In this document: in pieces, positions 48,025-62,578 of the stretch
Layout: each line of letters begins with the position of its first letter
Numbering within the stretch: position 1 is the first letter of the stretch
Assembly: GCA_021414025.1 (NCBI GenBank)
Contig: JAIOPG010000004.1
Location: 1-64,000 of the forward strand
Source: Planctomycetota bacterium
GTDB taxonomy: Bacteria > Planctomycetota > Phycisphaerae > Phycisphaerales > SM1A02
Reading direction: 5' to 3'
Length of the DNA: 64,000 nt
Position numbers and translations under genes: made by a program
Notes under the pieces: generated by a model
What the model saw: only the letters and a program-made list of their open reading frames with translations
Database searches by the model: none
Told to the model about the DNA's origin: nothing

Positions 48025-48708
48025 TCAGTTCCGACGACGGCGGCTCGAAACCAGTCCGGCCAAGCCGACGAGGGCTGCCGCGCCAGGGGCGGGAACCTCG
48101 ATGATGAGATCCTGGAAGGATTCACTTCCAAGTCCCACAAGGTTGGTCGCCATCGGACCACCGAGATTGGCCGCTGCCGCAAACAGGAAAGCCACATCGG
48201 CCGCGGTGGCCGGGTTGAGAACCTGGGTGACCTGGAAGAGATCGGCGCTCAGGTCGAGGCTGGCGGGGTTGCCGGTGTAATCATTGTAAATTTCCCAAAC
48301 GCCCAGCTGGAACGCTGCAGCGAAATCGCTGTCCGCGACAAACTGCTGTCCGGCTGCCGCATACCACATGCGGGCGATCGCATCGGCCTTCACGATTCCC
48401 ATGCCAAATCCGGGAATGGGAAGTGCGTCAACTGAAAGCACCTGGTAGGTCTGGGCTGAGCCGCCGATCTGAATGTTCTGGGTGATTTCAGTGCAGAAGG
48501 ACTTGTAGACTCCATTGGGCGGGCCACCAATGCTGTTGGTCAACGCAAGATCGATCTGACCCGTGTACTCGGTGGCAGGGTTGCCGGCGAGAAGGGTGTT
48601 GATCATCTGGTAGTTGCTGACGCTTGTGCACGCAACATCAACAGTGGCGGCATGGGCGAAACCAGCGACGGCGCAGGCCGAAACAACAGCAAAAACATAA
48701 TTTTTCAT
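48025..48708 (-). CDS. Secreted protein with P-x-P-G/RRRR sorting tail
   Basis: A 227-residue secreted protein from ATG 48708. Signal MKNYVFAVVSACAVAGFAHA. The body has FCTEITQNIQIGGSAQTYQV and GMGIVKADAIARMWYAAA with AAFQLGVWEIYNDY, a thioester-like or PEP-CTERM-associated domain pattern. The end VPAPGAAALVGLAGLVSSRRRR is the sorting signal. AGGATT precedes the start. Confidence 0.85.
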   Translation of the reverse strand: MKNYVFAVVSACAVAGFAHAATVDVACTSVSNYQMINTLLAGNPATEYTGQIDLALTNSIGGPPNGVYKSFCTEITQNIQIGGSAQTYQVLSVDALPIPGFGMGIVKADAIARMWYAAAGQQFVADSDFAAAFQLGVWEIYNDYTGNPASLDLSADLFQVTQVLNPATAADVAFLFAAAANLGGPMATNLVGLGSESFQDLIIEVPAPGAAALVGLAGLVSSRRRRN

Positions 48709-48711
48709 TGT

Positions 48712-48737
48712 GAATCCTAAAAAAAGGGAAAGGGAAC
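48712..48737 (-). promoter_or_regulatory. Conserved leader element of a surface-protein gene
   Basis: Reverse strand GTTCCCTTTCCC (48726-48737) is followed by TTTTTTTAGGATTC just before the ATG. A second GTTCCCC copy lies at 48761-48767. AGGATT doubles as the ribosome site. Confidence 0.6.
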
Positions 48738-48938
48738 AAAAGGGAGTGAAAGTGAAGTGAGGGGAACAGTCTAAGGCATACTGCGCCAAAAAGAGCGTAA
48801 AGCAAGGCAAAATGCCTTAGAAACTGCACTTATCTCTTATGAGACCAGTACGAATTTCGCGGGGTTATCCGGGATTTCATGCGGGTTTTTGCATCGCCTT
48901 GACTTCCAAAGCTGACTTGCGAAGGCGTTGAAAAACAA

Positions 48939-48967
48939 AACACCCTGGATCAAGGATCCAGGGTGTT
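48939..48967 (-). terminator. Terminator of the surface-protein gene at 48995
   Basis: AACACCCTGGATC and GATCCAGGGTGTT form a 13-bp stem with a three-base loop. Reading leftwards it is followed by TTGTTTTTC. Confidence 0.9.
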
Positions 48968-48994
48968 GAAGTGACAAGTTATGTGACTGACGAA

Positions 48995-49753
48995 TTAGAT
49001 TCGTCGGCGACGTCGGCCCGCGATCGAGCCGGCAACCGCAAGCAACGCGGTGGCTCCAGGAGCCGGGATGACGTTGCCCACGCCAATGTTGTCGATCGCC
49101 CAGCTGGGCGCACCGGCACTGGTGTTGGAGTCAAACGACGCACGGAAGCGAATGCGAAGGGTGTCGCCGGCATCGAACGTTCCGAGATTGGCCACGCTGT
49201 TCATGAACGAGCTGGTCAGAAACGCCGTGGATTCGCCGGAGAAAACCGCCGAACCATCGGCCAATTCGCTACCCGCGCCCCAGCCCGTCAGCACGCCGTT
49301 GTACCCATTGGCACCGAAAGCACTGCCGTCAACCTTGGTGAACGCCCCGCCATTGCGGCTGACGAACACCGCACCACCGTCCCACCGACCGCCCGAATCA
49401 ACCTCGAAGCTGAAGCGATGGTCGAAGCTCAGGGTGACGCTTCCGTTCGCAAGAACGGTCATCGCCGAGCTCGTCAAATCCGTGGTGCATGAGTGACCGA
49501 TGTTGGCGGCCTGTCCAATGGTCGCCCAACCACCCGTTCCATCCGCACCACCGGAGGCGCTGTACGTCCAGGGACCTTCAAATTCAGCCGTGTTAAAGGC
49601 TGAGGTAAAACTTCCGTCGTTTGCATTGAAGTCGATGTTCACATCGCTGAACGCAGGTGAAGCAATGCCCGCAACCGCAAGTGTCAAAACGCTGGCTGAG
49701 AACTTCGCCAAGGCTGAATTCTTGATCTTTGAATTGGTGATTGAAGTTTTCAT
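48995..49753 (-). CDS. Secreted jelly-roll-like protein with sorting tail, paralog of 50813-51544
   Basis: A 252-residue secreted protein from the ATG at 49753. Signal ends near ASPAFS. The body has DVNIDFNANDGSFTSAFNTA, GWATIGQAANIGHSCTTDLTSS and FDHRFSFE, a laminin-G-like beta-sandwich. The tail IPAPGATALLAVAGSIAGRRRRR is the sorting signal. It is clearly paralogous to the protein encoded at 50813-51544. Its upstream region (49754-50000) lacks the GTTCCC element of its neighbours. Confidence 0.85.
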   Translation of the reverse strand: MKTSITNSKIKNSALAKFSASVLTLAVAGIASPAFSDVNIDFNANDGSFTSAFNTAEFEGPWTYSASGGADGTGGWATIGQAANIGHSCTTDLTSSAMTVLANGSVTLSFDHRFSFEVDSGGRWDGGAVFVSRNGGAFTKVDGSAFGANGYNGVLTGWGAGSELADGSAVFSGESTAFLTSSFMNSVANLGTFDAGDTLRIRFRASFDSNTSAGAPSWAIDNIGVGNVIPAPGATALLAVAGSIAGRRRRRI

Positions 49754-50000
49754 AACCCATCTCAACTTTCTGGGCCGAAGCCCGAGTGAATTGCAGTAAC
49801 AATCCAGACTCGAAAACTGTCGAATATGAAAGTTTCGAAGGCAAGGAAATGGATGAGTTTTGGGTCAGAATGCCTGTTTGGTGGTCAAAAACGGCACTCG
49901 CAATCTGGCCATCAACAATGTAGGTCCAATAATGTACGCCCTCGTAGTCACCTGCAAATTGATGGCAACCCCTCAAAGTCGTCCCGAGGAATGAAACAAA

Positions 50001-50029
50001 AACGCCTTGGATCTGGGATCCAAGGCGTT
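50001..50029 (-). terminator. Terminator of the surface-protein gene at 50052
   Basis: AACGCCTTGGATC pairs with GATCCAAGGCGTT over a three-base loop, 13 bp. Reading leftwards it runs into TTTGTTTC. Confidence 0.88.
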
Positions 50030-50051
50030 CTTTAAAGCATTGTGGATTGAA

Positions 50052-50561
50052 TCAGACGCGACGGCGGCTGCCAACCAAGCCGGCAAGGCTCAGCAGGGCA
50101 AACGCACCTGGAGTCGGAACAGGAACCACCCCAAGGAGCCCGCCATCATCCAATGGAGAGTAGGTGTTGGCACCATCGCCATTCTTGTGGCCATAGAGAG
50201 AGTGCGAGGAGGGATTGTTGGCCCACATGTTGATCTCGTTGCCCGAATTGTCCATGAACTCCAAGCCACCCGAGGTGGTCATATAGGTCGAGGAATTCAG
50301 GTCGAAGATGCCGTCCCAGACGAAGGAGGAATTGCTGCCCGATCCGGCGATCAGGGTGTAGGTTCCGTCCATGCCGGACGTGCCCGTCACGGTCACAAAT
50401 CCCGTCACCGCATTGATGCCGGTGATATCGATTTGGCCGGTTGCGAAGATGCCTGGATTGGCAGCTCCACCCGAGTAGGTGAAGTTGACCAAGGTGGCCT
50501 GGGCAACGGCGGTCACGGCTGACACAGCCAAAATCGAAGCGAATAGCGAGCGGTTTTTCAT
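50052..50561 (-). CDS. Secreted protein with P-x-P-G/RRR sorting tail
   Basis: A 169-residue secreted protein from the ATG at 50561 (MKNRSLFASILAVSAVTAVA). The body is beta-rich, with GQIDITGINAVTGFVTVTGT. The end VPTPGAFALLSLAGLVGSRRRV fits the sorting signal with a shorter basic run. The group is not a recognised enzyme. It lies between the two paralogous jelly-roll genes. Confidence 0.82.
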   Translation of the reverse strand: MKNRSLFASILAVSAVTAVAQATLVNFTYSGGAANPGIFATGQIDITGINAVTGFVTVTGTSGMDGTYTLIAGSGSNSSFVWDGIFDLNSSTYMTTSGGLEFMDNSGNEINMWANNPSSHSLYGHKNGDGANTYSPLDDGGLLGVVPVPTPGAFALLSLAGLVGSRRRV

Positions 50562-50582
50562 GGGATTTCCAATGCTGAAGAA

Positions 50583-50596
50583 GGGTGAAAGGGAAC
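50583..50596 (-). promoter_or_regulatory. Conserved leader element of a surface-protein gene
   Basis: Reverse strand GTTCCCTTTCACCC, identical over 14 bases to the element at 44368. It lies 22 bases before the ATG at 50561. Confidence 0.6.
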
Positions 50597-50753
50597 TATC
50601 TCGGCATTGTGCGTTAAAAGGGCGCACAATTCAAAATGAAGATGTCACAAGTGCAGTATTTAGCAAGGGATATTTGCAATATTTCCAATTTTGTGATGGA
50701 TTTTTCCAACGCATAATTCCAAACAAAACCCAAACAACAAAGTCTCAAAAAGA

Positions 50754-50787
50754 CAACCGCCTTGGATCGGGAGACCCAAGGCGGTTG
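50754..50787 (-). terminator. Terminator of the surface-protein gene at 50813
   Basis: CAACCGCCTTGG pairs with CCAAGGCGGTTG around a ten-base loop. Reading leftwards it is followed by TCTTTTTGAG. The loop contains GGATC-like bases as in the neighbouring terminators. Confidence 0.85.
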
Positions 50788-50812
50788 ATCAGTGCAATGA
50801 AATCTTCAAACT

Positions 50813-51544
50813 TCAGTTGCGTCGACGACGAAGGCCGACCATCGAACCCGCAATCGCCAGCACCGCGGTGGCGCCGGGGAACGGCACCGGAACGACATTG
50901 CTGATATCGAGGCCATCGATCGACCAGCTGGGAAGACCAGCGCGGGTGTTCGAATCAAAGGCGGCTCGGAAGCGGATGGAGATCGTGTCGCCAGCGCTGA
51001 ACGAACCCAGGTTCGCCAGGCTGTTCATGAATGAACTGGATTCTGCGGCAGATTCACCGGAGAAAACCGCCGCTGCACCAGCCAGTTCGCTTCCATAGCC
51101 CCAGCCCGTCAAGGCGCCGTTGTAGCCGTTGGAAACAAATGCGCTGTTGTCCAGCATGGTGTATGCACCACCGTTGTGGCTGACAAACACCGCTCCGCCA
51201 TCCCAGCCATTTTCAAAGCTGTAGTGGTGGTCGAAGCTGAGTTGGACTGCACCCGTGGTGCTCACCGTGAACACTGAACTGGTGAGATCAGTGGTGCAGG
51301 AGTGGCTCACATCGTCGGATTGACCGACGGTGTACCAACCACCTGTACCAGCAGCGCCACCGGTTGGGCTCCAAACCCAGGGACCCTCGAAGGCCGCGGT
51401 GTTGAAGGACGATGAGAAGCCACCATCATTGCTGTTGAAATTGATGCTCACATCACCGAGGACGGGAGAAGCAACACCAGCAACCGCCAGGGCAAAGATG
51501 CCCGCGGCAAGGGAGATACGGCTTGTATTGACGCGTAAGGACAT
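50813..51544 (-). CDS. Secreted jelly-roll-like protein with sorting tail
   Basis: A 243-residue secreted protein from ATG 51544 (MSLRVNTSRISLAAGIFALA). Its body (DVSINFNSNDGGFSSSFNTA, SHSCTTDLTSS, FDHHYSFENGWDGGAVFVS) matches the protein encoded at 48995-49753 over the full length. The end VPFPGATAVLAIAGSMVGLRRRR is the sorting signal. Probably a surface or matrix protein from a tandem duplication. Confidence 0.85.
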   Translation of the reverse strand: MSLRVNTSRISLAAGIFALAVAGVASPVLGDVSINFNSNDGGFSSSFNTAAFEGPWVWSPTGGAAGTGGWYTVGQSDDVSHSCTTDLTSSVFTVSTTGAVQLSFDHHYSFENGWDGGAVFVSHNGGAYTMLDNSAFVSNGYNGALTGWGYGSELAGAAAVFSGESAAESSSFMNSLANLGSFSAGDTISIRFRAAFDSNTRAGLPSWSIDGLDISNVVPVPFPGATAVLAIAGSMVGLRRRRN

Positions 51545-52053
51545 AGGGATCCAAACTCTCTGAGCCAATGGCTCGTTAAGGAAGTGAATGAGATTCTTGT
51601 GCAAAGGGAAAGGGAACAGTAAAGGGAACAGGCCCGGTGACAATGCGCTGAAAAAGCCTCCCGTCAAGGAAAACAGCCGCAATATTCGGCAAAAGTGCAT
51701 ATGAAGGATAACTAATCGTTTATTTAGACCAGGAGCCTTTTTGTGCAAAAAATGTCTCGTTTTTGGTTATGGGTCGACCTTCAGTTCCCCGGAATTAACT
51801 CCAGGGCCGCCTCAAGTGAGATTCGAGCAATCGGGAGGGTGGGTATGCCCGAAATTCTTGCGCGAAACTGAAATTTGATGATCTTGCGGATCTCAAATCC
51901 CATGAAATTGTCATCGTGGAATTGCCTTGCGGCAACATCAAACCTTTGTCAAAACTCATTCAAAAGTGCCGTGTTTTCCTTTGGTTCTGTTGAGTCCATG
52001 ATGCCGCAATGGGACGGGGAAGTTGGTTACGATCCTTGAAGCAACCCCCACCC
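51545..52053. other. Long intergenic region with leader elements
   Basis: No gene is seen. On the reverse strand GTTCCCTTTCCCTTT (51603-51617) and GTTCCCTTT (51621-51629) are the leader elements of the gene at 50813-51544, with TTGACG and ATTGTC 17 bases apart further upstream (about 51642-51670). The rest (about 51680-52050) is AT-richer and probably holds the promoter of the ATP-citrate-lyase-like genes. Confidence 0.6.
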
Positions 52054-53637
52054 ATGGCGCGAATTCACGAATATCAAGGCAAAGCAATCCTCTCCAAACA
52101 GGGGTTCCAGATTCCCCGCGGCACCGCCGCCACGACCGCGGAACATGCTGAACAAATTGCCAAGGATTTGATTGGAAAAACCGGGGGTGACGTGGTCGTC
52201 AAGATTCAGGCCTGGACCACGGGGCGCGCCGGCATTGGCGGCGTGGCATTCGCCAAAAGCAGCGAGGAGGCCGGGACTCATGCGGTCCGAATGTTGTCCA
52301 TGAAGGTTGGGCAATTCCCGGTTGAGGCGGTGCTGGTCGAGGAAAAGTTGGACATCGAAAGGGAGTTTTTCCTGTCGCTGGCCATCGATGACGCCTCCCG
52401 AGCGCCGGTGATCATTTTCGCGGCCGGGGGCGGCAGCGGAATCGAGGAACGGGCCGCGTCGACGCGGCGGATTCCCTGCGATGTGAAACGTGGACCCCTT
52501 GAAGCGGCGACCCGTGAAGCCGCGGGTTCGTGTGGTCTTTCTCCTGCCCATGCGACCCGGCTTGCCGAAATGATTCATGCCCTGTTCATCGCCGCTCAAA
52601 GCGTCGAGGCCCGGTCGCTTGAGATCAATCCGTTGGTGCTGACCCGGGATGGCCGATTCGTCGCCGCCGACTGCCGAATGACGATCGATGATTACGCGGT
52701 GGTGCGTCACCCCGAACTGGGAATTGAGATCGCGAGGGAGTTCGATCATCCGCCCACGGCGCTTGAACGAGTGGCCTACGCCGCCGAACAGAATGATCAT
52801 CGCGGAACGTTCTATTTCGCCCAGCTCGCCACTGCGGCTTCCAAGGATTCCAAGGGGCTTGTGGGATTTCACGGCGCCGGCGGCGGCGGATCGATGATGT
52901 CGATGGACGCCATCGTGAACGCGGGATTCACCATTGCCAATTTCACCGACACCAGCGGCAACCCCTCCGCGACCAAGGTGTACCGGGCGAGCCGGATCAT
53001 TCTGGCCCAGCCCGACATCGTGGGCTATTTCGGCTCCGGCTCCGGAGTGGCGAGCCAGGAACAATTTTGGTCGGCCTACGGATTGGCCAAGGCTTTCTGG
53101 GAGCTCGATCTGAACATTCCCGCAGTGATCCGGCTGGGAGGCAACACGGAGGATCGCGCCGTGGACATTCTGCGGCGAATGTCCGGGCTGCTTCGTGCGC
53201 CGGTCGAGGGCTATCGCAAGACCGACGCACCGGCCATGATTGCCGAGCGATTCGCGAAGCTCGTCGCGGATTCAGGCGGTGTGAAGTGGAAGCCGCGTGC
53301 CCCTCGCGTTCCGAAATTCGTGGAGGATCCGTCGGCCATGCAACTTCCGGTGAAAAGTGGCCGCGTGTGGATTGACGCCACTCGTTGGGCGCAGATTCGC
53401 CGCGCCGTGGAAACGCACTCGGGTGGCTTGATCGTGGATCGCGGCGGCGCACCGTCGGCCTCGCTGCCCCTTGAGGAGTTTGCCAGCAAGGATTCCGAGT
53501 TGCTCGCCTGCGACGTGGAGTGCCGGCTCGCGGGAGTTGAAGGCTTTCATCTTGAGCTGGACATTCCCGGGCTTGAAGAACTGGTGGGATGCAAGTCGAC
53601 GGCGGGCTCGCCGGTCGCCGTGGGGGGAGTCCGCTGA
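52054..53637 (+). CDS. aclB: ATP-citrate-lyase-like beta subunit (SucC-like ATP-grasp) with C-terminal extension
   Basis: A 527-residue protein from the ATG at 52054. It starts MARIHEYQGKAILSKQGFQI, the succinyl-CoA-ligase beta ATP-grasp signature, and shows EARSLEINPLVLTRDG and GVDIAG-type C-lobe segments. SucC-like subunits are about 390 residues; the last 125 (from about 400) are an added domain I do not recognise. With the downstream gene it would bind ATP, citrate and CoA to form citryl-CoA. It overlaps aclA by one base (TGATG). Confidence 0.82.
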   Translation: MARIHEYQGKAILSKQGFQIPRGTAATTAEHAEQIAKDLIGKTGGDVVVKIQAWTTGRAGIGGVAFAKSSEEAGTHAVRMLSMKVGQFPVEAVLVEEKLDIEREFFLSLAIDDASRAPVIIFAAGGGSGIEERAASTRRIPCDVKRGPLEAATREAAGSCGLSPAHATRLAEMIHALFIAAQSVEARSLEINPLVLTRDGRFVAADCRMTIDDYAVVRHPELGIEIAREFDHPPTALERVAYAAEQNDHRGTFYFAQLATAASKDSKGLVGFHGAGGGGSMMSMDAIVNAGFTIANFTDTSGNPSATKVYRASRIILAQPDIVGYFGSGSGVASQEQFWSAYGLAKAFWELDLNIPAVIRLGGNTEDRAVDILRRMSGLLRAPVEGYRKTDAPAMIAERFAKLVADSGGVKWKPRAPRVPKFVEDPSAMQLPVKSGRVWIDATRWAQIRRAVETHSGGLIVDRGGAPSASLPLEEFASKDSELLACDVECRLAGVEGFHLELDIPGLEELVGCKSTAGSPVAVGGVR

Positions 53638-55349
53638 TGGCGATCCTGATCGACGAAACCAAGCGGGTCCTGGTGCAGGGCATCACCGGTCGCGAGGGTC
53701 AGGCTCGCACTCGCCTTATGCGCGAGTATGGAACCCAGGTCGTCGCGGGCGTGACGCCGGGCAAGGGCGGGCAAACGGTGCTGGGCGTTCCGGTTTTCAA
53801 CACGCCACAGGAGGCGGTGAAAGCCCTTGGCACAATTGACATCTCCGTTTTGTTCGTGCCCGCGGTCGGCGTGAAGGACGCGGCGCTGTCGGCGATCGAC
53901 GCGGGCATCAAGCTCACTGTGCTGGTGCCGGATCGCGTGCCCGTGTGGGACGCCATGGAGATCGCGGCGGCCGCCAAGGCGAATGGCGCGCTCTTCCTCG
54001 GACCCAACACGCTTGGCGCGCTGAGTCCTGGGCGGGGCGTGGTCGGCATGATCGGCGGCCGCGCCGAAAGCGCGCGGCAATGGTTCAAACCCGGCGTTCC
54101 CGCCGGCGTCGGAGTGATCAGTCGCTCCGGCGGCATGGCTTCAAGCACGGGCTACTACCTGGGGCAGGCGGGTGTGAGGCTCTCGACCATCGCGCACATC
54201 GGCGGCGACGCGGTGCTGGGAATTCGCATTCCTGACGCGGCGCTGATGTTCGAGGCCGATCCGCTTACCGAAGCCATCGTGGTCTTCGGCGAAATCGGCT
54301 CCTCGCAGGAAGAGGAATTGGCCCAGTTGATTCGCGACCGCAAGGTCACCAAGCCGGTGGTCGCCTACATCGGCGGCAAGGCGGCGCGCGAAGGCACGCG
54401 ATTCAGTCATGCGGGGGCGATCATCGAGAATGGCCGAGGAACGCACGCCGGCAAGGTGAAGGCGCTGCGCGAGGCGGGGGCCACTGTGGTCGACGCCTTC
54501 GGCGAGCTGCCCGGCGCCGTGGTGGAAATTCTTCAGCGGATGAAAGGGCGGAGCCTGATGAGCGAAACCGACAAAAACGCGGTGTGGAACACGGCGGTGA
54601 CGCGGATCGAGCCCAACAAGGTCGCGGTGCGCGGCTACGACATCGCCGACCTCATGGGGCGGGCCTCCTTTGGTGCCGCGGTGCACTTGATTCTGACCGG
54701 GGAGCTTCCCAAGCCTGTCATCGCGAAGCTGATGGACGCAGTGCTGGTTGCCTCGATCGATCACGGTGCCACGCCACCGAGCGCGCTGGCAGCGCGGACC
54801 GTGGCCTCAACGGGAGCCTCGCTGAGCGCCGCAGTTGCAGCCGGCATCATGTCGATCAACCGGCACCATGGCGGCGCCATCGAGGATTGCGCCCGACAGT
54901 TGAAGGTGATCGCCGACCGCGCCAAAAGCGAGTCAATTTCGATGGACGAAGCGGCGACGCGCACGCTGGCCACGATGAAGGAGGCGGGAGACCGGATGCC
55001 GGGGTTCGGCCATCGCTACCACACCAAGGATCCGCGCACGGCAAGGCTTTTCGAGCTGGCCCGCGAGGCAGGCGTGGATGGAGCGCACATGCAGGCGGCG
55101 CGGGCGGTCGAGAAATCCTTCGCCGACGCCAAGAAGCCGCTGCCGATCAACGTGGATGGGGCCATCGGGGCCATTCTCGCCGATCTTGGCATGGATCCCG
55201 CGGCGTTCAACGGCATTTTCATGATCGCGCGGACGCCGGGGCTGGTGGCGCATGTCATCGAAGAGCAGACCCGCGAGAAGCCGATGCGCCGGATCGACCC
55301 GGTCAACCACGGCTACGACGGGCCCGCCCCGAGAAACCTTCCCGCGTAA
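53637..55349 (+). CDS. aclA: ATP-citrate-lyase-like alpha subunit (SucD plus citryl-CoA lyase fusion)
   Basis: A 570-residue fusion. Residues 1 to about 300 are SucD-like: LVQGITGREGQ, GVISRSGGM and the phospho-His258 in RFSHAGAI. Residues about 308-570 are a citryl-CoA-lyase/citrate-synthase fold with DHGATPPSALAARTVASTGA, INRHHGGAIEDC and PGFGHRYHTKDPR. This is the AclA architecture of the reverse TCA cycle enzyme, which splits citrate to acetyl-CoA and oxaloacetate at the cost of ATP. A synthetic direction, or another tricarboxylate, cannot be excluded. Confidence 0.85.
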   Translation: MAILIDETKRVLVQGITGREGQARTRLMREYGTQVVAGVTPGKGGQTVLGVPVFNTPQEAVKALGTIDISVLFVPAVGVKDAALSAIDAGIKLTVLVPDRVPVWDAMEIAAAAKANGALFLGPNTLGALSPGRGVVGMIGGRAESARQWFKPGVPAGVGVISRSGGMASSTGYYLGQAGVRLSTIAHIGGDAVLGIRIPDAALMFEADPLTEAIVVFGEIGSSQEEELAQLIRDRKVTKPVVAYIGGKAAREGTRFSHAGAIIENGRGTHAGKVKALREAGATVVDAFGELPGAVVEILQRMKGRSLMSETDKNAVWNTAVTRIEPNKVAVRGYDIADLMGRASFGAAVHLILTGELPKPVIAKLMDAVLVASIDHGATPPSALAARTVASTGASLSAAVAAGIMSINRHHGGAIEDCARQLKVIADRAKSESISMDEAATRTLATMKEAGDRMPGFGHRYHTKDPRTARLFELAREAGVDGAHMQAARAVEKSFADAKKPLPINVDGAIGAILADLGMDPAAFNGIFMIARTPGLVAHVIEEQTREKPMRRIDPVNHGYDGPAPRNLPA

Positions 55350-55361
55350 ATTAGAATCGAC

Positions 55362-55970
55362 ATGACCACCATGACCACAACACAACGGACCACCCACGGC
55401 GTCGCCGAGATCGCCCAGCTCTTTCCCAGCTTGATGAAGATCAGCGACAAGGCGCTGCGCGAGAAGGTGGCCGCCGTGTGGAACGAGGCCATCGCCACGG
55501 GGTGCGGCGGCAAGGGCTGGACCTTCGACGAGCTCCGCGCCGTCAAGTTCACGCTGCTCGCCGGCGACATCGACATGACCTTCGTCGAGCACCTGAACTC
55601 CTGCGCGCTGCAGTGCATCGCCATCGCGGATGTGCTTGAAGGCTCCTTCCGCTGCGGCATTCCGATCCAGCGGGACTTCCTCATCGCCGGCGCGCTGCTG
55701 GCCGACTGCGGCAAGCCGCTGGAGTTCGACAAGGACGCCTCGGGCAAGGTGGTGCAGGGAGTTTTCGGACAGCAGGTGCGGCATCCCTTCACCGGGGTCG
55801 CGCTGGCGTACAAGCACGGACTGCCCGGCGAGGTGATGCACATCATCGCCACGCACAGCCACGAAGGCGACAAGATGGAGCGCTCGATCGAGTCGATCAT
55901 TTTCCATCACGCCGATTTCGTGGACTTTGACATCGCCAAGTTCCTGGGCAAGCGCGCGATACAGAAATAA
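55362..55970 (+). CDS. HD-domain-like protein with altered HD dyad
   Basis: A 202-residue protein, 12 bases after aclA. The HD pattern is VEHLNSCALQCIAIADVL, LLADCGKPLEFD, RHPFTG and HHADFVDFD. The His of the HD dyad is Ala114 (AD instead of HD) while Asp115, the other His and the last Asp remain. HD proteins are metal phosphohydrolases; this change suggests altered or lost catalysis. TAGAAT lies four bases before the ATG. Confidence 0.7.
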   Translation: MTTMTTTQRTTHGVAEIAQLFPSLMKISDKALREKVAAVWNEAIATGCGGKGWTFDELRAVKFTLLAGDIDMTFVEHLNSCALQCIAIADVLEGSFRCGIPIQRDFLIAGALLADCGKPLEFDKDASGKVVQGVFGQQVRHPFTGVALAYKHGLPGEVMHIIATHSHEGDKMERSIESIIFHHADFVDFDIAKFLGKRAIQK

Positions 55971-56006
55971 AATGTGGGCCGCTCGCACATTTGAGTAACG
56001 GAGTTC

Positions 56007-57686
56007 ATGCAGCCGTCGACCCCAAAGTTGTCCGAATCCCCAGAGTTCAAGAGCTGGGCTGCAAACGCGGCAAAACGCATTGTCCAATGCCTAATTGAGG
56101 AGTATTGCGAAGATAGTTTCGACCTCGGATTGCATGAACATCCGCGGTTTGATTTGCATCAAACTCCAAAGCGACCGGCGCGAGCCCGATTCGTTGTTCG
56201 ACTTTTGGCGGCACACTCAGAGGCCTGGCAAGAATGCACGCGTATGGCCGAGTGGTGCAACAATTACGCGAGTTCAAGCAGGTTTGAGCGCAGGGATTTG
56301 CAAGATGCAGTCCGTGATATTGTCGTGCCTCTATCAGAGTTGTCAGAATTACTGCAGCATTGCTCAAAAGGAGTAAATGGCCAAACACCAGTGCGGCCGC
56401 CATCTAGTGTGCTGGAGACTTGTGCACGACGCGTTGAAGAAGTCCTGCATGAAGAAGTGCCAATCGTTCTGGCAGCCATGAGCCTCGCCGAAGAAAACTA
56501 TTTTCCCGTTCGTCAAAGGCAAAATTCAGTTCCTACACTCGTTCTGCCGAGCGAGGACAGGGACATCGTGCTGGTGAGGCATGAGAATATTGCGTTGCTG
56601 AGTGAGAATCCAAGGTCAGGGTTGCGAGTCCGTTCGGCTGTGGAGGAAACGGAGACTCATGGAACGCCGTTGCACGAAGTAACGCTAACGGTGCAGGTAT
56701 GGGGTGCACCAAACTATGCGCAAACGATCGGGACAGATGCCTGCAACATAGTCGAGGGCGCACTATCGGCATATGTTGCCGCCTACTTGCTCGAACCCGA
56801 ATGCTTTGGCTCGGTGCGCGATACGCTCGCCCCGGTGCATCAGGACTCGAATGCCAAGTCCCCTGCAGGGGGGAAGTCGGCGTCTAGTCCGAGCCTAAGC
56901 TCAATGAACTGGAAAATTCACTTCAACAATTCGCGTAACAAAGCCTGGCGGACCAGTACGCCTCGTTTTGACGCCAGCACAGTGAAGGCGACCATCGAAG
57001 CCGGCTTACAGGGAATTGGGTCACGCGACGATCCGCCGAGAATTACCAGAGCTCTTCGACTACATGCTCTGGCAACTAGAAGCAAAGATTCTCAAGAGGC
57101 GATGCTGGCGTTCAATGTGGCGGCTCTTGAAGCACTGTTCGCCGACAGCGAGAGGAAAATTGGCAAGCAATTGCGCCAACGCATCGGCGCACTAATTGCG
57201 ACGCATGTCTCTGAAGTGCAGGAGGACTCAAATGCGGAAGCCGTCCCTAGCAATCCGCAAGATGAAAAAACTGTGCGCACTAATTATCGCAAGGTGCGCG
57301 ACACGGTTTATTGCTTGTACGGGCAAAGATCGTGCTTGGCGCACGGAGGTCACATTGATCAATACAAGTTGAAACAGTCTGCATCGATTGCCAATTTCCT
57401 GTCCGGCTATGCCATTCTCGCATGGGGCTATTGGCTGCGGCGGCAACAGCGGCAGTGTGAGGTGAAGCCTGAGGTAATTGCAATGAAGGATTCCGAAGGC
57501 CAAATTCTTAAGGCTCTGGACACAAGGGCAAACGCTTTGAAGGGTTCGGACAGCATTAAGAGTTCTGATCTGGACTTTGTTGACACGGCGGGTCCGATTC
57601 AACCTCTTCCGTTTGGCTGGCCGGGGGTTCTCTGGGCAAGGGAGTTTCAAGACGGTTTGAATGATATTTTGCGACGTCTCTCCTGA
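56007..57686 (+). CDS. HEPN-domain protein (ApeA-like)
   Basis: A 559-residue protein, AT-richer than both neighbours. The C-terminal part (about 365-480) has DSQEAMLAFNVAALEALFA, then RTNYRKVRDTVYCLYGQRSCLAHGG. The R441-x4-H446 matches the catalytic motif of HEPN RNases of the ApeA-like group, used in abortive infection. The long N-terminal part is unassigned. It interrupts the citrate gene cluster, so it may be an inserted defence gene. Confidence 0.7.
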   Translation: MQPSTPKLSESPEFKSWAANAAKRIVQCLIEEYCEDSFDLGLHEHPRFDLHQTPKRPARARFVVRLLAAHSEAWQECTRMAEWCNNYASSSRFERRDLQDAVRDIVVPLSELSELLQHCSKGVNGQTPVRPPSSVLETCARRVEEVLHEEVPIVLAAMSLAEENYFPVRQRQNSVPTLVLPSEDRDIVLVRHENIALLSENPRSGLRVRSAVEETETHGTPLHEVTLTVQVWGAPNYAQTIGTDACNIVEGALSAYVAAYLLEPECFGSVRDTLAPVHQDSNAKSPAGGKSASSPSLSSMNWKIHFNNSRNKAWRTSTPRFDASTVKATIEAGLQGIGSRDDPPRITRALRLHALATRSKDSQEAMLAFNVAALEALFADSERKIGKQLRQRIGALIATHVSEVQEDSNAEAVPSNPQDEKTVRTNYRKVRDTVYCLYGQRSCLAHGGHIDQYKLKQSASIANFLSGYAILAWGYWLRRQQRQCEVKPEVIAMKDSEGQILKALDTRANALKGSDSIKSSDLDFVDTAGPIQPLPFGWPGVLWAREFQDGLNDILRRLS

Positions 57687-57829
57687 AGACAGACTTCATG
57701 ATGTTCTTGGGCAAAGGTCTGGGCAGAAAATGCAATCTGTGAGCACAAGCGACAGTAAGGCTCTGTGATAATCAGAGTAATGCGCCAGTGATGTAATGCG
57801 GCGAAACATCGTGTGCTAAGGTAGACCGC

Positions 57830-59818
57830 ATGGGTCTCACGCTCGTCGAGAAGATCGCCGCACGCCATGCCGACGGGCTCGCCGCGGGAGCTCTTGTTCG
57901 AGCGGGCGATTTCATTTCCATCCGGCCGCGCCACGTCATGACCCATGACAACACCGGCGCGGTGATTCCAAAGTTCAAGCAGATCGGCGCCACCACGATC
58001 GCGGATTCCGCACAGCCGGTGTTCACCATCGATCACGACATCCAGAACGTCACGCCGGAAAATCTGGGCAAGTACGCCAAGATCCAGGCCTTTGCCCGCG
58101 AGCACGGCATCGATTTCTACCCGCCGGGCACGGGCATTTCGCACCAAGTGATGGTGGAGCAGGGCTATGTTGCACCAGGCGCGCTGGTGGTGGGCAGCGA
58201 TTCGCACTCCAATCTTTACGGCGCGGTGGCGGCGCTGGGAACGCCCGTGGTGCGCACCGACGCCGCGAGCATCTGGGCCACCGGAGTCACCTGGTGGCAG
58301 GTTCCCGCGGTGGCCAAGGTGGTGCTCAAGGGAAAACTCTCGGCGGGGGTGACCGGCAAGGACGTCATCATCGCTCTGTGCGGCCTCTTCAACAAAGACG
58401 AGGTGCTCAACCACGCCGTGGAATTTTTGGGAGATGGCGTGGCGCGGCTCTCGATGGATGCGCGCATGACCATCGCCAACATGACCACCGAGTGGGGCGC
58501 GCTGGCGGGGCTCTTTCCCTTTGATCAGGTGACCGTGAACTATCTGCGTTCGCGCGTGGGTGAGTTCACCAACCTTCGTCGCCCGGGAACGCGCGGCCCG
58601 AAGAGTCGATCGGGCTACAGCAATGCCGACATCGATGCGTGGTGGAAGGATCGGGCCAATCTCAGCGCCGACGCCGACGCGCACTACGCCATCGAGCTGG
58701 AGCTCGACCTGGCCACGGTGGTGCCGCATGTCTCCGGACCCAACGAAGTGAAGACCATGGTGTCGCTGCCGGAAATGCAGCGGAAGCACGTGCCGATTCA
58801 GAAGGCCTATCTGTTGTCGTGCGTCAATGCGCGGGTGGAAGACTTGCACGACGCCGCGACCGTGGTGCGCGCCAAGGGCGGGCGCGTGGCCGCAGGGGTC
58901 GAATTTTATCTGGCCGCTGCCAGCGCTGAAGTGCAGGGCAAGAGCGAAGCCGCGGGCGATTGGAAAGCACTTTTGGACGCAGGCGCCATTGCCTTGCCGC
59001 CAGGCTGCGGAACCTGCATCGGACTGGGCCGCGGACTTGTTGGCAAGGGGGAGACGGCGATCAGCGCCACCAACCGAAACTTCAAGGGGCGCATGGGCGA
59101 CCCCGACGCGCAGGTCTACCTGGGTTCGCCCGCCGTGGTGGCGGCGAGCGCCATGGCGGGATTCATCTGCGCTCCCCAGAATTTCGCGGACCGCGCCGCA
59201 GGAACCTCGGTGCGCCGCGCCGCGGGCCGGCCGCCCGAAGCGCGGACGGTGGAGATCATCGCCGGCTTTCCGCCGAGTGTGCGCGGCCGCGTCCTCTTCG
59301 TCGACAAGGACAACTTGAACACCGACGGCATCTACGCCGGCAAGCACACCTACCGCGACGACCTCACCCACGAGCAGATGGCCGCGGTGACCTTCGAGAA
59401 TTTTGACCCGAACTTCAACACGCTCTATCGCGCTGGCGACATCGTGGTGGGAGGGCTGAACTTCGGGACCGGATCGAGCCGCGAGCAGGCGGCCACCGCC
59501 CTCAAGTTCAAGGGCATTCCCTGCGTCATCGCCAGCAGTTTCTCCGAAACCTACAAGCGCAACGCCTTCAACAACGGCTTCGTGGTTTTCGAGTGCCCTG
59601 AGCTGGTGGCGCATCTTCGCGCCACGCTGACCAACCGCGCGCCCACCACGGCGGCGGCCGAGATGACCATCGACTACGGCAAGTCCAAGCTGACTCTGGA
59701 CGGGAAAACCTTCGCCTTTCCGCCGCTGAGCCCGGCGGCGCAGGAATTGATCGTCGCGGGGGGCGCCGAGAATCTGGTGGCAGCTCGGCTGAAGGCGAAG
59801 CCGCAAAAGACCGCGTAA
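57830..59818 (+). CDS. Homoaconitase-like aconitase family protein (LYS4/LysF type)
   Basis: A 662-residue fused large-plus-small-domain dehydratase. [4Fe-4S] cysteines lie at 331 (LLSCVNAR), 393 and 396 (PGCGTCIGLG). As I recall, strings such as VRTDAASIWATGVTWWQVP, TIANMTTEWGALAGLFP, SATNRNFKGRMG and GLNFGTGSSREQAATAL are closer to fungal LYS4/LysF than to AcnA, AcnB or LeuCD. It would hydrate and isomerise a tricarboxylate (homocitrate or citrate). TAAGGT, with an extended TG, ends seven bases before the ATG. Confidence 0.85.
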   Translation: MGLTLVEKIAARHADGLAAGALVRAGDFISIRPRHVMTHDNTGAVIPKFKQIGATTIADSAQPVFTIDHDIQNVTPENLGKYAKIQAFAREHGIDFYPPGTGISHQVMVEQGYVAPGALVVGSDSHSNLYGAVAALGTPVVRTDAASIWATGVTWWQVPAVAKVVLKGKLSAGVTGKDVIIALCGLFNKDEVLNHAVEFLGDGVARLSMDARMTIANMTTEWGALAGLFPFDQVTVNYLRSRVGEFTNLRRPGTRGPKSRSGYSNADIDAWWKDRANLSADADAHYAIELELDLATVVPHVSGPNEVKTMVSLPEMQRKHVPIQKAYLLSCVNARVEDLHDAATVVRAKGGRVAAGVEFYLAAASAEVQGKSEAAGDWKALLDAGAIALPPGCGTCIGLGRGLVGKGETAISATNRNFKGRMGDPDAQVYLGSPAVVAASAMAGFICAPQNFADRAAGTSVRRAAGRPPEARTVEIIAGFPPSVRGRVLFVDKDNLNTDGIYAGKHTYRDDLTHEQMAAVTFENFDPNFNTLYRAGDIVVGGLNFGTGSSREQAATALKFKGIPCVIASSFSETYKRNAFNNGFVVFECPELVAHLRATLTNRAPTTAAAEMTIDYGKSKLTLDGKTFAFPPLSPAAQELIVAGGAENLVAARLKAKPQKTA

Positions 59819-59912
59819 ATCCGTGGGGCCATGCGCTCCGCATCGATGCATCGTCGGGCCTGTATTCTTCCCGCTCTTCAAGTCCGAATCCCTATCCAAG
59901 GAAGAAAGCTCA

Positions 59913-61067
59913 ATGTCCAAATACAAGATTGCGTGGATGCCCGGCGACGGAGTTGGCAACGATGTCATGGAGGGGGCCCGGCTGGTGCTGGACCGGATGA
60001 AGTTTGACGCCGAGTACATCCACTGCGACATCGGCTGGGAATTCTGGTGCAAGGAGGGCAACGCGCTGCCTGACCGGACCGTGAAGGCGCTCGCCGACAC
60101 CACCTGCGGTCTCTTTGGCGCCATCACCAGCAAGCCGCAGGACGAGGCCAAGGAGGAGTTGATCCCCGAGCTCAAGGGCAAGGGGTTGGTTTATTTCTCG
60201 CCGATTGTCAAGCTGCGCCAGATGTTCAACCTGCACACCAACATGCGGCCTTGCAAGAGCTACCCCGGCAATCCGCTGAACTACCGCGGCACCAAGATCG
60301 CCAACCCGGGTGGCGGCGATGTCGCGATCGACCAGGTGGTCTTCCGCGAGAACACCGAGGGCATGTATGGCGGCGTGGAGTTCTTCCCGCTGCCCGAGCC
60401 GGTCTACACCGCGCTCTGCGCCAACCCCAAGATGAAGCCTTGGAAGGACAAGGGGCTGGAGAATGTCGCCCTCTCCACCCGCATCGTGAGCAAGCAGGGC
60501 TGCACCAGCATCTGCAAGCAGGCCTTCGAGTTTGCCAAGAAGACGGGCCGCAAGCGCGTCACGCTGATCGAGAAGCCCAACGTGCTGCGCGAGACCGGCG
60601 GACTGATGACCCGCTGCTTCCGCGAAGTGGCCAAGGGCTACGCGGGCATCTGGGCCGACGAGGCGAACATCGACGCCATCTGCATGTGGATGTTCAAGAA
60701 TCCGCAGGACTACTCGGTGCTGGTGGCGGAGAACATGTTCGGCGACATCGTGAGCGATCTCTGCGCCGGCCTGATCGGCGGCCTGGGCTTCGCGCCCAGC
60801 GCCAACTTGGGCGACAAGTATGCGGTGTTCGAGCCGACGCACGGGTCGGCTCCGAAATACGCGGGCCAATACAAGGTGAATCCCATCGCCATGCTCCTGA
60901 CCACCAAGATGATGCTGGACTGGCTCAAGGAGACCGAGAAGGCGACGCGCCTGGAGGCGGCCATCGCGAAGGTGATCGCCGAGGGGCGCGTGCGCACCTA
61001 CGACATGGGCGGCAAGGATTCCACGCTCGACATGGCCAAGGCGGTCGCCGAGAAGGCGACGGCCTGA
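59913..61067 (+). CDS. NADP-type isocitrate/isopropylmalate dehydrogenase family enzyme
   Basis: A 384-residue dehydrogenase from ATG 59913, with AAGGAAG upstream. Signatures: RENTEGMYGGVEF, ENMFGDIVSDLCAGLIGGLG and EPTHGSAPKYAGQYKVNP. The Lys-Tyr...Val in the last motif is the NADP-type set of E. coli isocitrate dehydrogenase. In the substrate loop, SPIVKLRQMF has Ser96 and Arg102, but Ile98 where isocitrate enzymes have Asn. Probably oxidises isocitrate or homoisocitrate. Confidence 0.85.
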   Translation: MSKYKIAWMPGDGVGNDVMEGARLVLDRMKFDAEYIHCDIGWEFWCKEGNALPDRTVKALADTTCGLFGAITSKPQDEAKEELIPELKGKGLVYFSPIVKLRQMFNLHTNMRPCKSYPGNPLNYRGTKIANPGGGDVAIDQVVFRENTEGMYGGVEFFPLPEPVYTALCANPKMKPWKDKGLENVALSTRIVSKQGCTSICKQAFEFAKKTGRKRVTLIEKPNVLRETGGLMTRCFREVAKGYAGIWADEANIDAICMWMFKNPQDYSVLVAENMFGDIVSDLCAGLIGGLGFAPSANLGDKYAVFEPTHGSAPKYAGQYKVNPIAMLLTTKMMLDWLKETEKATRLEAAIAKVIAEGRVRTYDMGGKDSTLDMAKAVAEKATA

Positions 61068-61129
61068 GCCCCGTCCTCGATCGCGCCGAACTGAATCCAC
61101 TTCACCTCTCGCCACACCACGGAGTCCAC

Positions 61130-62578
61130 ATGGCACACGCAACCACCGAGTCCAAGCGTCTTCTCTCGCACACCATCGCCGAGTGGGCCTGCTCGCTCAA
61201 GTACGAACACCTCTCCCCGGAGGCGATTCAGGCGGCGAAGCTGTTCTGGTTCGACTCCATCGGCTGCGCGCTGGGCGGCAGCCGCCAGGACGACGCGAAG
61301 ATCCTGCTCAAGCACTACCGCACCATGGGTGGCGGCAAGGGCGGCGCCACAGCGTTCGTCAGCGGCTTCAAGACCAATCCCGTCGACGCGGCATTTTTGA
61401 ACGGGCACATGATCCGCGCCATGGATTACAACGACATCTACTGGAAGGCCGACCCCTGCCATCCAAGCGACCTCATCGCGGCGCCGCTGGCACTGTGCGA
61501 GAGCGAGGGACTGGGCGGCCGGGAGCTGATCCTTGCCACCATCATCGCCTATGAGATCGAGATGCGATTGTGCGAAGTGGGCCGCCCCGGCGTGCGCGAG
61601 TACGGCTGGCACCACGCCACGCTGAGCGCGTTCGCGGCGCCGATCGCGGCGGGCCGGGTGCTGAATCTCACTCCGGCGCAGATGGTGTCCGCCATGGGCA
61701 TCAGCGCGTCGCGAACGTTCTGCCCTGGCGCCGTGACGGCGGGCAAGTTGACCAACATGAAAAACACGGTGGATCCCTGGGCGGGACGCATGGGCGCCGA
61801 AAGTGCGCTGCTGGCCCGCGGCGGATTCTCCGGCCCCGAGCACATTATCGATGGCAAGGAGGGCCTCTTCGCGGTGTTCAACCACGTTCAATACAAGGGG
61901 AATCCCGCCACCTTCGACGGCGCGGCCTTGGTCGCGGACCTTCCGACTTCAACCAAGTGTCACTACCGCATCCTGGACTGCGGCATGAAGAGCTTTCCCA
62001 TCGAGGCACTGAGCCACGCGCCGCTCACCGCCATGATGAAGACGATCAAGGAGCACGGTCTCCGCGCCGCCGACGTGAAGGAGATCAAGGTGGAGGTGAT
62101 CGCCCGTGCCGCCGACATCCTGGGCGATCCGCACAAGTACCGGCCCGATTCGAAGGAGACCGCCGACCACTCGTTGCCCTACTGCATGGCGGTGGGCCTG
62201 GTGGATGGCATGGTGACCCCGCTGCAATTCCGCGAGGAGCGCGTCATGGACAAGGCGCTGCAGCCGATCATGGACAAGGTGAAGGTGGTGGCCAACCAGG
62301 AGTTCGAGGCGCTCTTTCCCAAGTTCCAGCCCAGCCGCGTGACCATCACCACCAACGGCGGCGCGTCGCACTCCACGCGAGTTGACGTGCCCAAGGGCGA
62401 CCCGCGCGACCCGATGACCGAGGAGGAGATCGGCGTGAAGTTCACCGCGCTGGGCGGCGAGGTCATCGGCGAGGATCAATGCAAGAAACTGCGGAAGTGC
62501 ATCATGGGCCTAGACTCCGCCAAGTCGCTCGGCGCCTTGTTCGAGCTGACCACGGCGCGCGAAGCGCAGCACGCGTAG
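61130..62578 (+). CDS. MmgE/PrpD family dehydratase
   Basis: A 482-residue protein; GGAG lies before the ATG at 61130. It starts IAEWACSLKYEHLSPEAIQAAK and has FDSIGCALGG, ARAMDYND, FNPHAT-like HHATLSAFAAPI, and MKSFPIEALSHAPL with the active-site region of 2-methylcitrate dehydratase. Relatives include PrpD and cis-aconitate decarboxylase. In this cluster it probably handles a citrate-like acid. Confidence 0.9.
   Translation: MAHATTESKRLLSHTIAEWACSLKYEHLSPEAIQAAKLFWFDSIGCALGGSRQDDAKILLKHYRTMGGGKGGATAFVSGFKTNPVDAAFLNGHMIRAMDYNDIYWKADPCHPSDLIAAPLALCESEGLGGRELILATIIAYEIEMRLCEVGRPGVREYGWHHATLSAFAAPIAAGRVLNLTPAQMVSAMGISASRTFCPGAVTAGKLTNMKNTVDPWAGRMGAESALLARGGFSGPEHIIDGKEGLFAVFNHVQYKGNPATFDGAALVADLPTSTKCHYRILDCGMKSFPIEALSHAPLTAMMKTIKEHGLRAADVKEIKVEVIARAADILGDPHKYRPDSKETADHSLPYCMAVGLVDGMVTPLQFREERVMDKALQPIMDKVKVVANQEFEALFPKFQPSRVTITTNGGASHSTRVDVPKGDPRDPMTEEEIGVKFTALGGEVIGEDQCKKLRKCIMGLDSAKSLGALFELTTAREAQHA

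Follow-up and report, generated by a model that had tools for sequence, protein, structure and literature searches.

The window analysed here, a stretch of 64,000 nucleotides from contig JAIOPG010000004.1 of a planctomycete of the order Phycisphaerales, holds at 52,054-62,578 a cluster of genes that is predicted to turn over a citrate-like acid. Seven genes, all rightward, run from a first ATG at 52,054 to a final stop at 62,578; six are conserved in related loci and one is an inserted orphan. An earlier note, made from the sequence alone, gave the same order, strand and ends. The genes it named are correct, but it omitted two: an HD-fold protein, which is a conserved member, and an orphan open reading frame (ORF). 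The features are as follows:

52054..53637, plus strand: SucC-like subunit of an ATP-grasp ligase, with an extra C-terminal stretch of ~150 aa (PF08442, 125.3 bits)
53637..55349, plus strand: SucD-like ligase subunit fused to a citryl-CoA-lyase (CCL) domain (CoA_binding, Ligase_CoA, Citrate_synt)
55362..55970, plus strand: HD-fold protein with Ala-Asp replacing the His-Asp doublet (alignments)
56007..57686, plus strand: 559-aa orphan ORF, taken to be an insertion (GC 0.54, no family match)
57830..59818, plus strand: predicted single-chain LYS4-type homoaconitase (TIGR00139 score and tree)
59913..61067, plus strand: NADP-type beta-decarboxylating dehydrogenase, proposed to act on homoisocitrate/2-oxoadipate (PF00180, 274.6 bits; HGSAPKY signature)
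60198..60221, plus strand: substrate loop S-P-I-V-K-L-R-Q of this dehydrogenase (alignment with isocitrate and homoisocitrate dehydrogenase structures)
61130..62578, plus strand: MmgE/PrpD-family protein, proposed for the homocitrate/homoaconitate step (PF03972, 220.6 bits; PF19305, 142.9 bits)

Identities were assigned by Pfam and NCBIfam profile scans of the window proteins with NCBI's curated cut-offs, and each of the SucC-like, SucD-CCL, aconitase, dehydrogenase and PrpD identities is backed by them. The orphan ORF has no Pfam or NCBIfam match, no counterpart in the loci of relatives, and a lower GC content than the 0.64-0.66 alongside, and is therefore read as an insertion.

We compared the cluster with 93 loci of relatives (L numbers; G numbers denote genomes), namely the best 80 aconitase matches of a genome scan, which are its top slice, and 13 further loci, with genes called by a codon model. 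Aconitase occurs in 92 of them, the dehydrogenase in 62, HD in 60 (plus 3 fragments), PrpD in 30 (plus 3 fragments), the SucC-like gene in 26, the SucD-CCL fusion in 19, CCL alone in 14, SucD alone in 8, and CitDE and CitF in 6 each; the counts are incomplete and not independent of one another, because many loci end at contig ends, L102 and L103 belong to one genome, and the aconitases of L035 and L108, like those of L073 and L104, are identical. In a second sample, 198 genomes of the window's class, a LYS4-like aconitase was matched at 1e-100 in 13 genomes, the HD gene in 14 and both in 12 (Fisher p = 2e-16, kinship ignored). Cluster genes are found side by side in Phycisphaerales and other Planctomycetota, in Chthoniobacterales/Spartobacteria and in further groups; the cluster recurs across Verrucomicrobiota, Planctomycetota and Acidobacteriota. 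Gene order is conserved, also in other phyla, contrary to the lack of conserved order that the earlier note named as a refutation.

The closest relatives of the window proteins are verrucomicrobial: those of L016, for example, share 82, 92, 89, 89, 89 and 91% identity, as against ~57-58% between the AcnA proteins of the two genomes. In the aconitase tree the window falls in a 33-row clade (Shimodaira-Hasegawa-like approximate likelihood ratio test 100), where it is joined by 26 rows from Verrucomicrobiota, five from planctomycetes and one that is labelled Acidobacteria. From these identities and this mixed-phylum clade, the cluster is read as having moved between phyla by horizontal transfer, in either direction. 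Contamination or chance assembly is not favoured, as other phycisphaeral genomes carry the same gene set. L016 and 11 other verrucomicrobial loci also have a conserved ORF of ~95-130 aa before HD, with a codon-model call in only 6 loci. Eight loci (L048, L052, L058, L062, L063, L073, L104, L105) carry, inside the cluster before the aconitase, a gene of the tryptophanase/tyrosine-phenol-lyase family, scoring 666 bits for NF009709 in L062 (cut-off 285); L073 and L104 themselves resemble near-copies of each other.

What kind of lyase opens the cluster? The SucC-like protein (AlphaFold2 model, mean predicted local distance difference test score (pLDDT) 82.4) has Thermus SucC as its nearest PDB sequence (3ufx_B, 6.2e-46), ahead of an ATP-citrate lyase subunit (6hxj_A, 2.2e-26). 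The fusion protein is nearest to SucD (2yv2, 9.7e-75) and CCL (6hxp, 2.6e-55) and reaches 263 bits for NF004869 citryl-CoA lyase (cut-off 212). The motifs SHAG, HHGG, GFGH and NVDG, which we take to be the phospho-His and His/His/Asp catalytic set, are retained in 20 of 20 fusions, with differences in adjacent letters. The suggestion of an ATP-citrate-lyase-type enzyme built on AclAB thus holds for the ligase and CCL domains and their motifs, but not for the canonical AclAB pair, since SucC, SucD and CCL chains outscore AclA and AclB among PDB sequences. Like ATP-citrate lyase, and like citryl-CoA synthetase plus CCL, the enzyme joins a SucCD-like ligase to a CCL domain; unlike AclAB, it is nearer to SucCD plus a stand-alone CCL, and some relatives have separate SucD and CCL genes.

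In six loci (L091, L094, L096, L097, L098, L099) the ligase-lyase is replaced by a lyase of the citrate lyase (CitDEF) type, which differs from CitDEF in that CitD is fused to CitE and that, in L091, CitE (266.4 bits, cut-off 443.4) and CitF (489 bits, cut-off 501.45) both lie under the citrate-lyase equivalog cut-offs. None of the gene-called loci has both kinds of lyase; among the 13 cluster genomes of the class, the CCL type is found in 6, a full CitF in 5, both in 0, and neither in 2, G096 and G197. The G197 contig stops ~1 kb beyond HD, where a transposase-like ORF, so named by reading, lies at the contig end (L108:13108-13635). CCL-type and CitDEF-type lyases both suit cleavage, and the service of two unrelated citrate-type lyases to one cluster argues that a citrate-like acid is cleaved.

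The aconitase points to which acid this may be. With 728.3 bits for the homoaconitase model TIGR00139 (cut-off 529.9), the window protein bears out the resemblance to homoaconitase noticed earlier; eight other scanned LYS4-like proteins score 719.8-896.3 bits, all above the cut-off, and the genome's own AcnA gave no TIGR00139 match at 1e-100. A PF00330 search of 18 genomes showed a further aconitase-family protein in all but one, the L082 genome. Three LYS4-like aconitases whose examined flanks lack ligase-lyase genes (L087, L080, L089) score above the window protein, at 854-896 bits, and are possible relatives of the source of the fungal homoaconitase.

The changed substrate loop of the dehydrogenase, also flagged in the earlier note, is real and family-wide: all 51 aligned rows read SPIV, as do 63 of the 66 gene-called dehydrogenases, the window's included, two of the remaining three being short fragments. 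An alignment with known structures places Ile where isocitrate dehydrogenase (IDH) has its loop Asn, a residue with a role in that enzyme, so that the protein lacks the Ser/Asn loop of IDH; the IDH equivalog cut-offs are missed as well (268.9/510, 226.3/432.4 and others). With the IDH Asn absent, the loop speaks against isocitrate and would fit homoisocitrate or a less polar acid. The HGSAPKY signature of the window protein presumably marks an NADP-type enzyme through its Lys-Tyr pair; among the 66 dehydrogenases this pair was read in 59, the NAD-type Asp-Leu in 1 (G131), and neither could be read in 6.

The PrpD-family protein is the loosest member of the cluster, and the window copy lies far under the PrpD equivalog cut-offs (56.1/458, 72.8/575, 89.2/950). 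According to PMC3556520, fungal homoaconitases interconvert only homoaconitate and homoisocitrate, another enzyme carrying out homocitrate<->homoaconitate; on that account a second dehydratase would be needed, which gives PrpD a role, and we infer that it may be the partner dehydratase for this step. In L035, L040, L045 and L108 SdhC-A-B genes, named by reading, directly follow PrpD.

The HD-fold protein has no step in the pathway proposed below. Its His-Asp doublet of HD metal phosphohydrolases is not present: among 63 relatives Ala-Asp, as in the window, was read in 59 and Ile-Asp in 1, with 3 not read. It scores 27.4 bits for HDIG, just under the cut-off of 27.6, and its AlphaFold2 model (pLDDT 90) has YhaM as the best Foldseek match (E 1.0e-3). 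A PhnZ/MIOX-type oxygenase is not supported: the doublet has no His, and a search of PDB sequences gave nothing significant.

How does the cluster fit the rest of the genome? The window's own genome (G000) holds two full citrate synthases, AcnA, three more Iso_dh proteins and a second MmgE/PrpD, with one citrate synthase gene adjoining a gene read as PrpB; a second or non-cluster MmgE/PrpD occurs in 18 of 19 genomes searched, the exception being G065. The cluster, which contains neither homocitrate synthase nor PrpB, is therefore accessory. The reverse or bypassed tricarboxylic acid (TCA) branch raised earlier is not favoured, since the canonical enzymes are kept and Ile replaces the IDH loop Asn. 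An autotrophic reductive TCA cycle was set aside: the cluster has no 2-oxoglutarate ferredoxin oxidoreductase (the genome was not searched for it), and the oxidative enzymes are kept.

Two links lead from the cluster to lysine. In G131 a same-strand run reads LysW-LysX-ArgC-like-ArgB-like-M20-CCL-HD-aconitase-dehydrogenase-PrpD, and at 5 or 6 of its 9 junctions the stop of one gene overlaps the start of the next; LysW (59.7 bits, cut-off 53.2) and LysX (316.5 bits, cut-off 275.6) were scored, and the ArgC-like, ArgB-like and M20 genes were named by reading. Here CCL has no SucCD beside it, the dehydrogenase is of the NAD type, and the aconitase sits on a long branch nested among ligase-type clusters, its exact position in the tree being unsure. 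LysW is over its cut-off in 3 of the 13 cluster genomes; the other 10 gave no match, nor did the own genome. The other five LysW regions examined, L115-L119, had no match to cluster genes, and ArgW/LysW pathways can also make arginine, as stated in PMC10433800, so that G131 is a single case and not a rule. Three of these regions, L119 (G188), L115 (G113) and L116 (G189), perhaps serve arginine; a LysX motif considered as a sign of lysine over arginine was not decisive.

The second link is piperidine-6-carboxylate (P6C) dehydrogenase. With the L016 enzyme as query (NF050084, 785 bits, cut-off 730), it was found in 12 of the 13 cluster genomes versus 56 of 185 others (p = 1.3e-5, kinship ignored), G131 being the sole cluster genome without a match; the protein of the own genome reaches 731.1 bits. 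A P6C-dehydrogenase-like gene lies in the examined flanks of 5 of the 93 loci (L016, L023, L092, L099, L107), of which L016 and L107 were model-tested, L107 falling 0.2 bits below the cut-off. The saccharopine-dehydrogenase family, which includes lysine 6-dehydrogenase, is represented in 7 of the 93 loci, directly after HD in L048, L052, L062 and L068; both Pfam domains are present in the two genes tested, and the own genome also encodes a family member. Such a gene lies within ~1.3 kb of P6C dehydrogenase in 8 of 30 carriers, none of these eight being a cluster genome.

Taken together, the homoaconitase cut-off passed by the aconitase, the LysW operon of G131 and the co-occurrence with P6C dehydrogenase favour the homocitrate series over citrate: the cluster probably acts on homocitrate/2-oxoadipate compounds, as predicted from genomes, and of the options raised earlier the homocitrate-type one fits best. 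Direction is harder to judge. The G131 locus looks biosynthetic and the remaining loci catabolic, because G131 combines Asp-Leu in place of Lys-Tyr, CCL without SucCD and LysW-type genes with the absence of P6C dehydrogenase. We propose, on a balance that we place close to even, that the cluster is the first half of the alpha-aminoadipate pathway reversed so as to degrade lysine, with substrate, direction and catalytic steps all deduced from genomes. Lysine would be converted to 2-aminoadipate by a member of the lysine/saccharopine dehydrogenase family and P6C dehydrogenase, encoded outside the cluster, and 2-aminoadipate to 2-oxoadipate by some aminotransferase. The NADP-type dehydrogenase would then join 2-oxoadipate, CO2 and NADPH into homoisocitrate, the LYS4-type enzyme would dehydrate this to homoaconitate, PrpD would hydrate homoaconitate to homocitrate, and the SucCD-like/CCL enzyme, or the CitDEF-type lyase of other lineages, would split homocitrate into 2-oxoglutarate and acetyl-CoA (or acetate). 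In sum, lysine would yield 2-oxoglutarate with no carbon lost and no O2 used in these steps.

A number of observations weigh against this proposal. In the dehydrogenase loop, Val takes the position of Arg85 of Thermus homoisocitrate dehydrogenase (HICDH), a residue that sets specificity, and the HICDH equivalog cut-offs are missed (AksF2 324.7/540, AksF 282.1/500, iso_homocit_dh 147.3/680). The P6C association takes no account of phylogeny, and the cluster is absent from 56 of 68 genomes with P6C dehydrogenase. At 1e-20 the saccharopine-dehydrogenase family is matched in 4 of 13 cluster genomes versus 26 of 185 others, which is no clear enrichment and leaves lysine entry unsupported for most cluster genomes. 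The own genome, alone among cluster genomes, encodes HglS and so has a known 2-oxoadipate route. In G107, G113, G172 and G189 the matching PrpD lies at least 20 kb off or on another contig, and in G096 neither HD nor a lyase was matched. The SdhC-A-B genes provide a TCA-like context in four loci (the identity of the L035 and L108 aconitases bearing on that count), and neither they nor the tryptophanase-family gene of eight loci have a place in the proposed pathway.

Among the alternatives, turnover of ordinary citrate and isocitrate fares best, though we think it unlikely: a parallel reductive branch would lead from 2-oxoglutarate to citrate, to be cleaved to oxaloacetate and acetyl-CoA. Both lyase types do come from citrate lyase families, 4 loci have genes for succinate dehydrogenase next to the cluster and the NADP signature agrees, but the homoaconitase score, the Ile at the IDH loop Asn, the canonical enzymes retained in the own genome and the sub-cut-off CitE and CitF of L091 all speak against it. 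Next comes homocitrate chemistry in the forward direction, likewise unlikely and placed a little lower, in which the lyase would act as a synthase and the cluster would make 2-oxoadipate and 2-aminoadipate for lysine or another product. The G131 run, where LysW-type genes lead into CCL without SucCD, HD, aconitase, an NAD-type dehydrogenase and PrpD, is what one would expect of it; the rarity of LysW in cluster genomes, the NADP-type dehydrogenases found outside G131 along with lyases of the ATP-dependent or CitDEF kind, and the P6C dehydrogenase association are not, and G131 itself is no proof of lysine, since ArgW/LysW pathways can serve arginine too (PMC10433800). The cluster might instead shorten a different 2-oxoacid whose side chain is less polar, for instance 2-oxobutyrate (through 3-methylmalate and citramalate) or an acid of the leucine type. 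This would suit the aligned Ile-Val pair of the loop, which sits at the position of the hydrophobic pocket of isopropylmalate dehydrogenase; the P6C dehydrogenase and LysW links and the homoaconitase score make it improbable. A variant of the 2-methylcitrate cycle, suggested by a PrpD-family member beside an aconitase, is very improbable, as the cluster has no PrpB, the own genome encodes another MmgE/PrpD as well as a citrate-synthase-family protein whose gene lies beside the one read as PrpB, and the alcohol of 2-methylisocitrate, being tertiary, could not be oxidised by a dehydrogenase of this kind.

It is instructive to set the proposed lysine-degrading pathway beside known systems. The fungal alpha-aminoadipate pathway consists of homocitrate synthase, aconitase plus the LYS4 homoaconitase, and homoisocitrate dehydrogenase; the cluster shares with it a single-chain LYS4-type homoaconitase, a second dehydratase in the isomerization and a dehydrogenase of the homoisocitrate/isocitrate family, but is bacterial, lacks homocitrate synthase, has a ligase-lyase, PrpD and an NADP-type dehydrogenase, and would probably run backwards. 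The G131 orthologues tie the cluster to the LysW-dependent lysine pathway, five genes of which, LysW and LysX among them, share their run, yet that pathway uses the two-subunit homoaconitase LysTU where the cluster has a LYS4-type enzyme, and most cluster genomes lack a LysW match. Like the HglS route, the cluster would take 2-oxoadipate toward 2-oxoglutarate; unlike HglS, a single O2-using enzyme that releases CO2 on a route via D-2-hydroxyglutarate, it would fix CO2 and split off acetyl-CoA. HglS is described in PMC7286885 as converting 2-oxoadipate to 2-hydroxyglutarate with O2. As an alternative to the cluster it was not upheld: the negative association is not significant, with overlap in the own genome only, and the inverse relation is suggestive only (1/7 vs 12/19 among P6C-positive genomes of the same order, p = 0.07; p = 0.44 for all P6C-positive genomes and p = 1.0 for the whole class).

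If the proposal is true, soil and freshwater bacteria would draw 2-oxoglutarate from lysine with no need of oxygen and no loss of carbon, and a homocitrate-cleaving enzyme would be a new activity. Naming these genes ATP-citrate lyase, aconitase or isocitrate dehydrogenase would then wrongly suggest carbon fixation by the reductive TCA cycle, so that the annotations would need correction, and the cluster aconitases, as bacterial relatives of fungal LYS4, would bear on the origin of the fungal pathway. More tentatively still, the cluster may represent a third bacterial 2-oxoadipate route, O2-independent, CO2-fixing and carbon-conserving via homocitrate, with a new homocitrate lyase of the ATP-dependent or CitDEF type; the route would have passed from phylum to phylum, and one lineage would have reversed it to lysine biosynthesis with a CCL-family homocitrate synthase. 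A search of the open-access literature turned up no study in which lysine is degraded by way of homocitrate cleavage, and the phrase 'homocitrate lyase' had no match. No Rfam lysine riboswitch was matched at the gathering score in the window, L101, L097, L062 or L040.

Upstream of the cluster, at 48025-51748, lie four leftward ORFs whose products look secreted and end at the C-terminus in an arginine-rich sorting tail that by eye resembles PEP-CTERM; the one that was scanned had no Pfam match.

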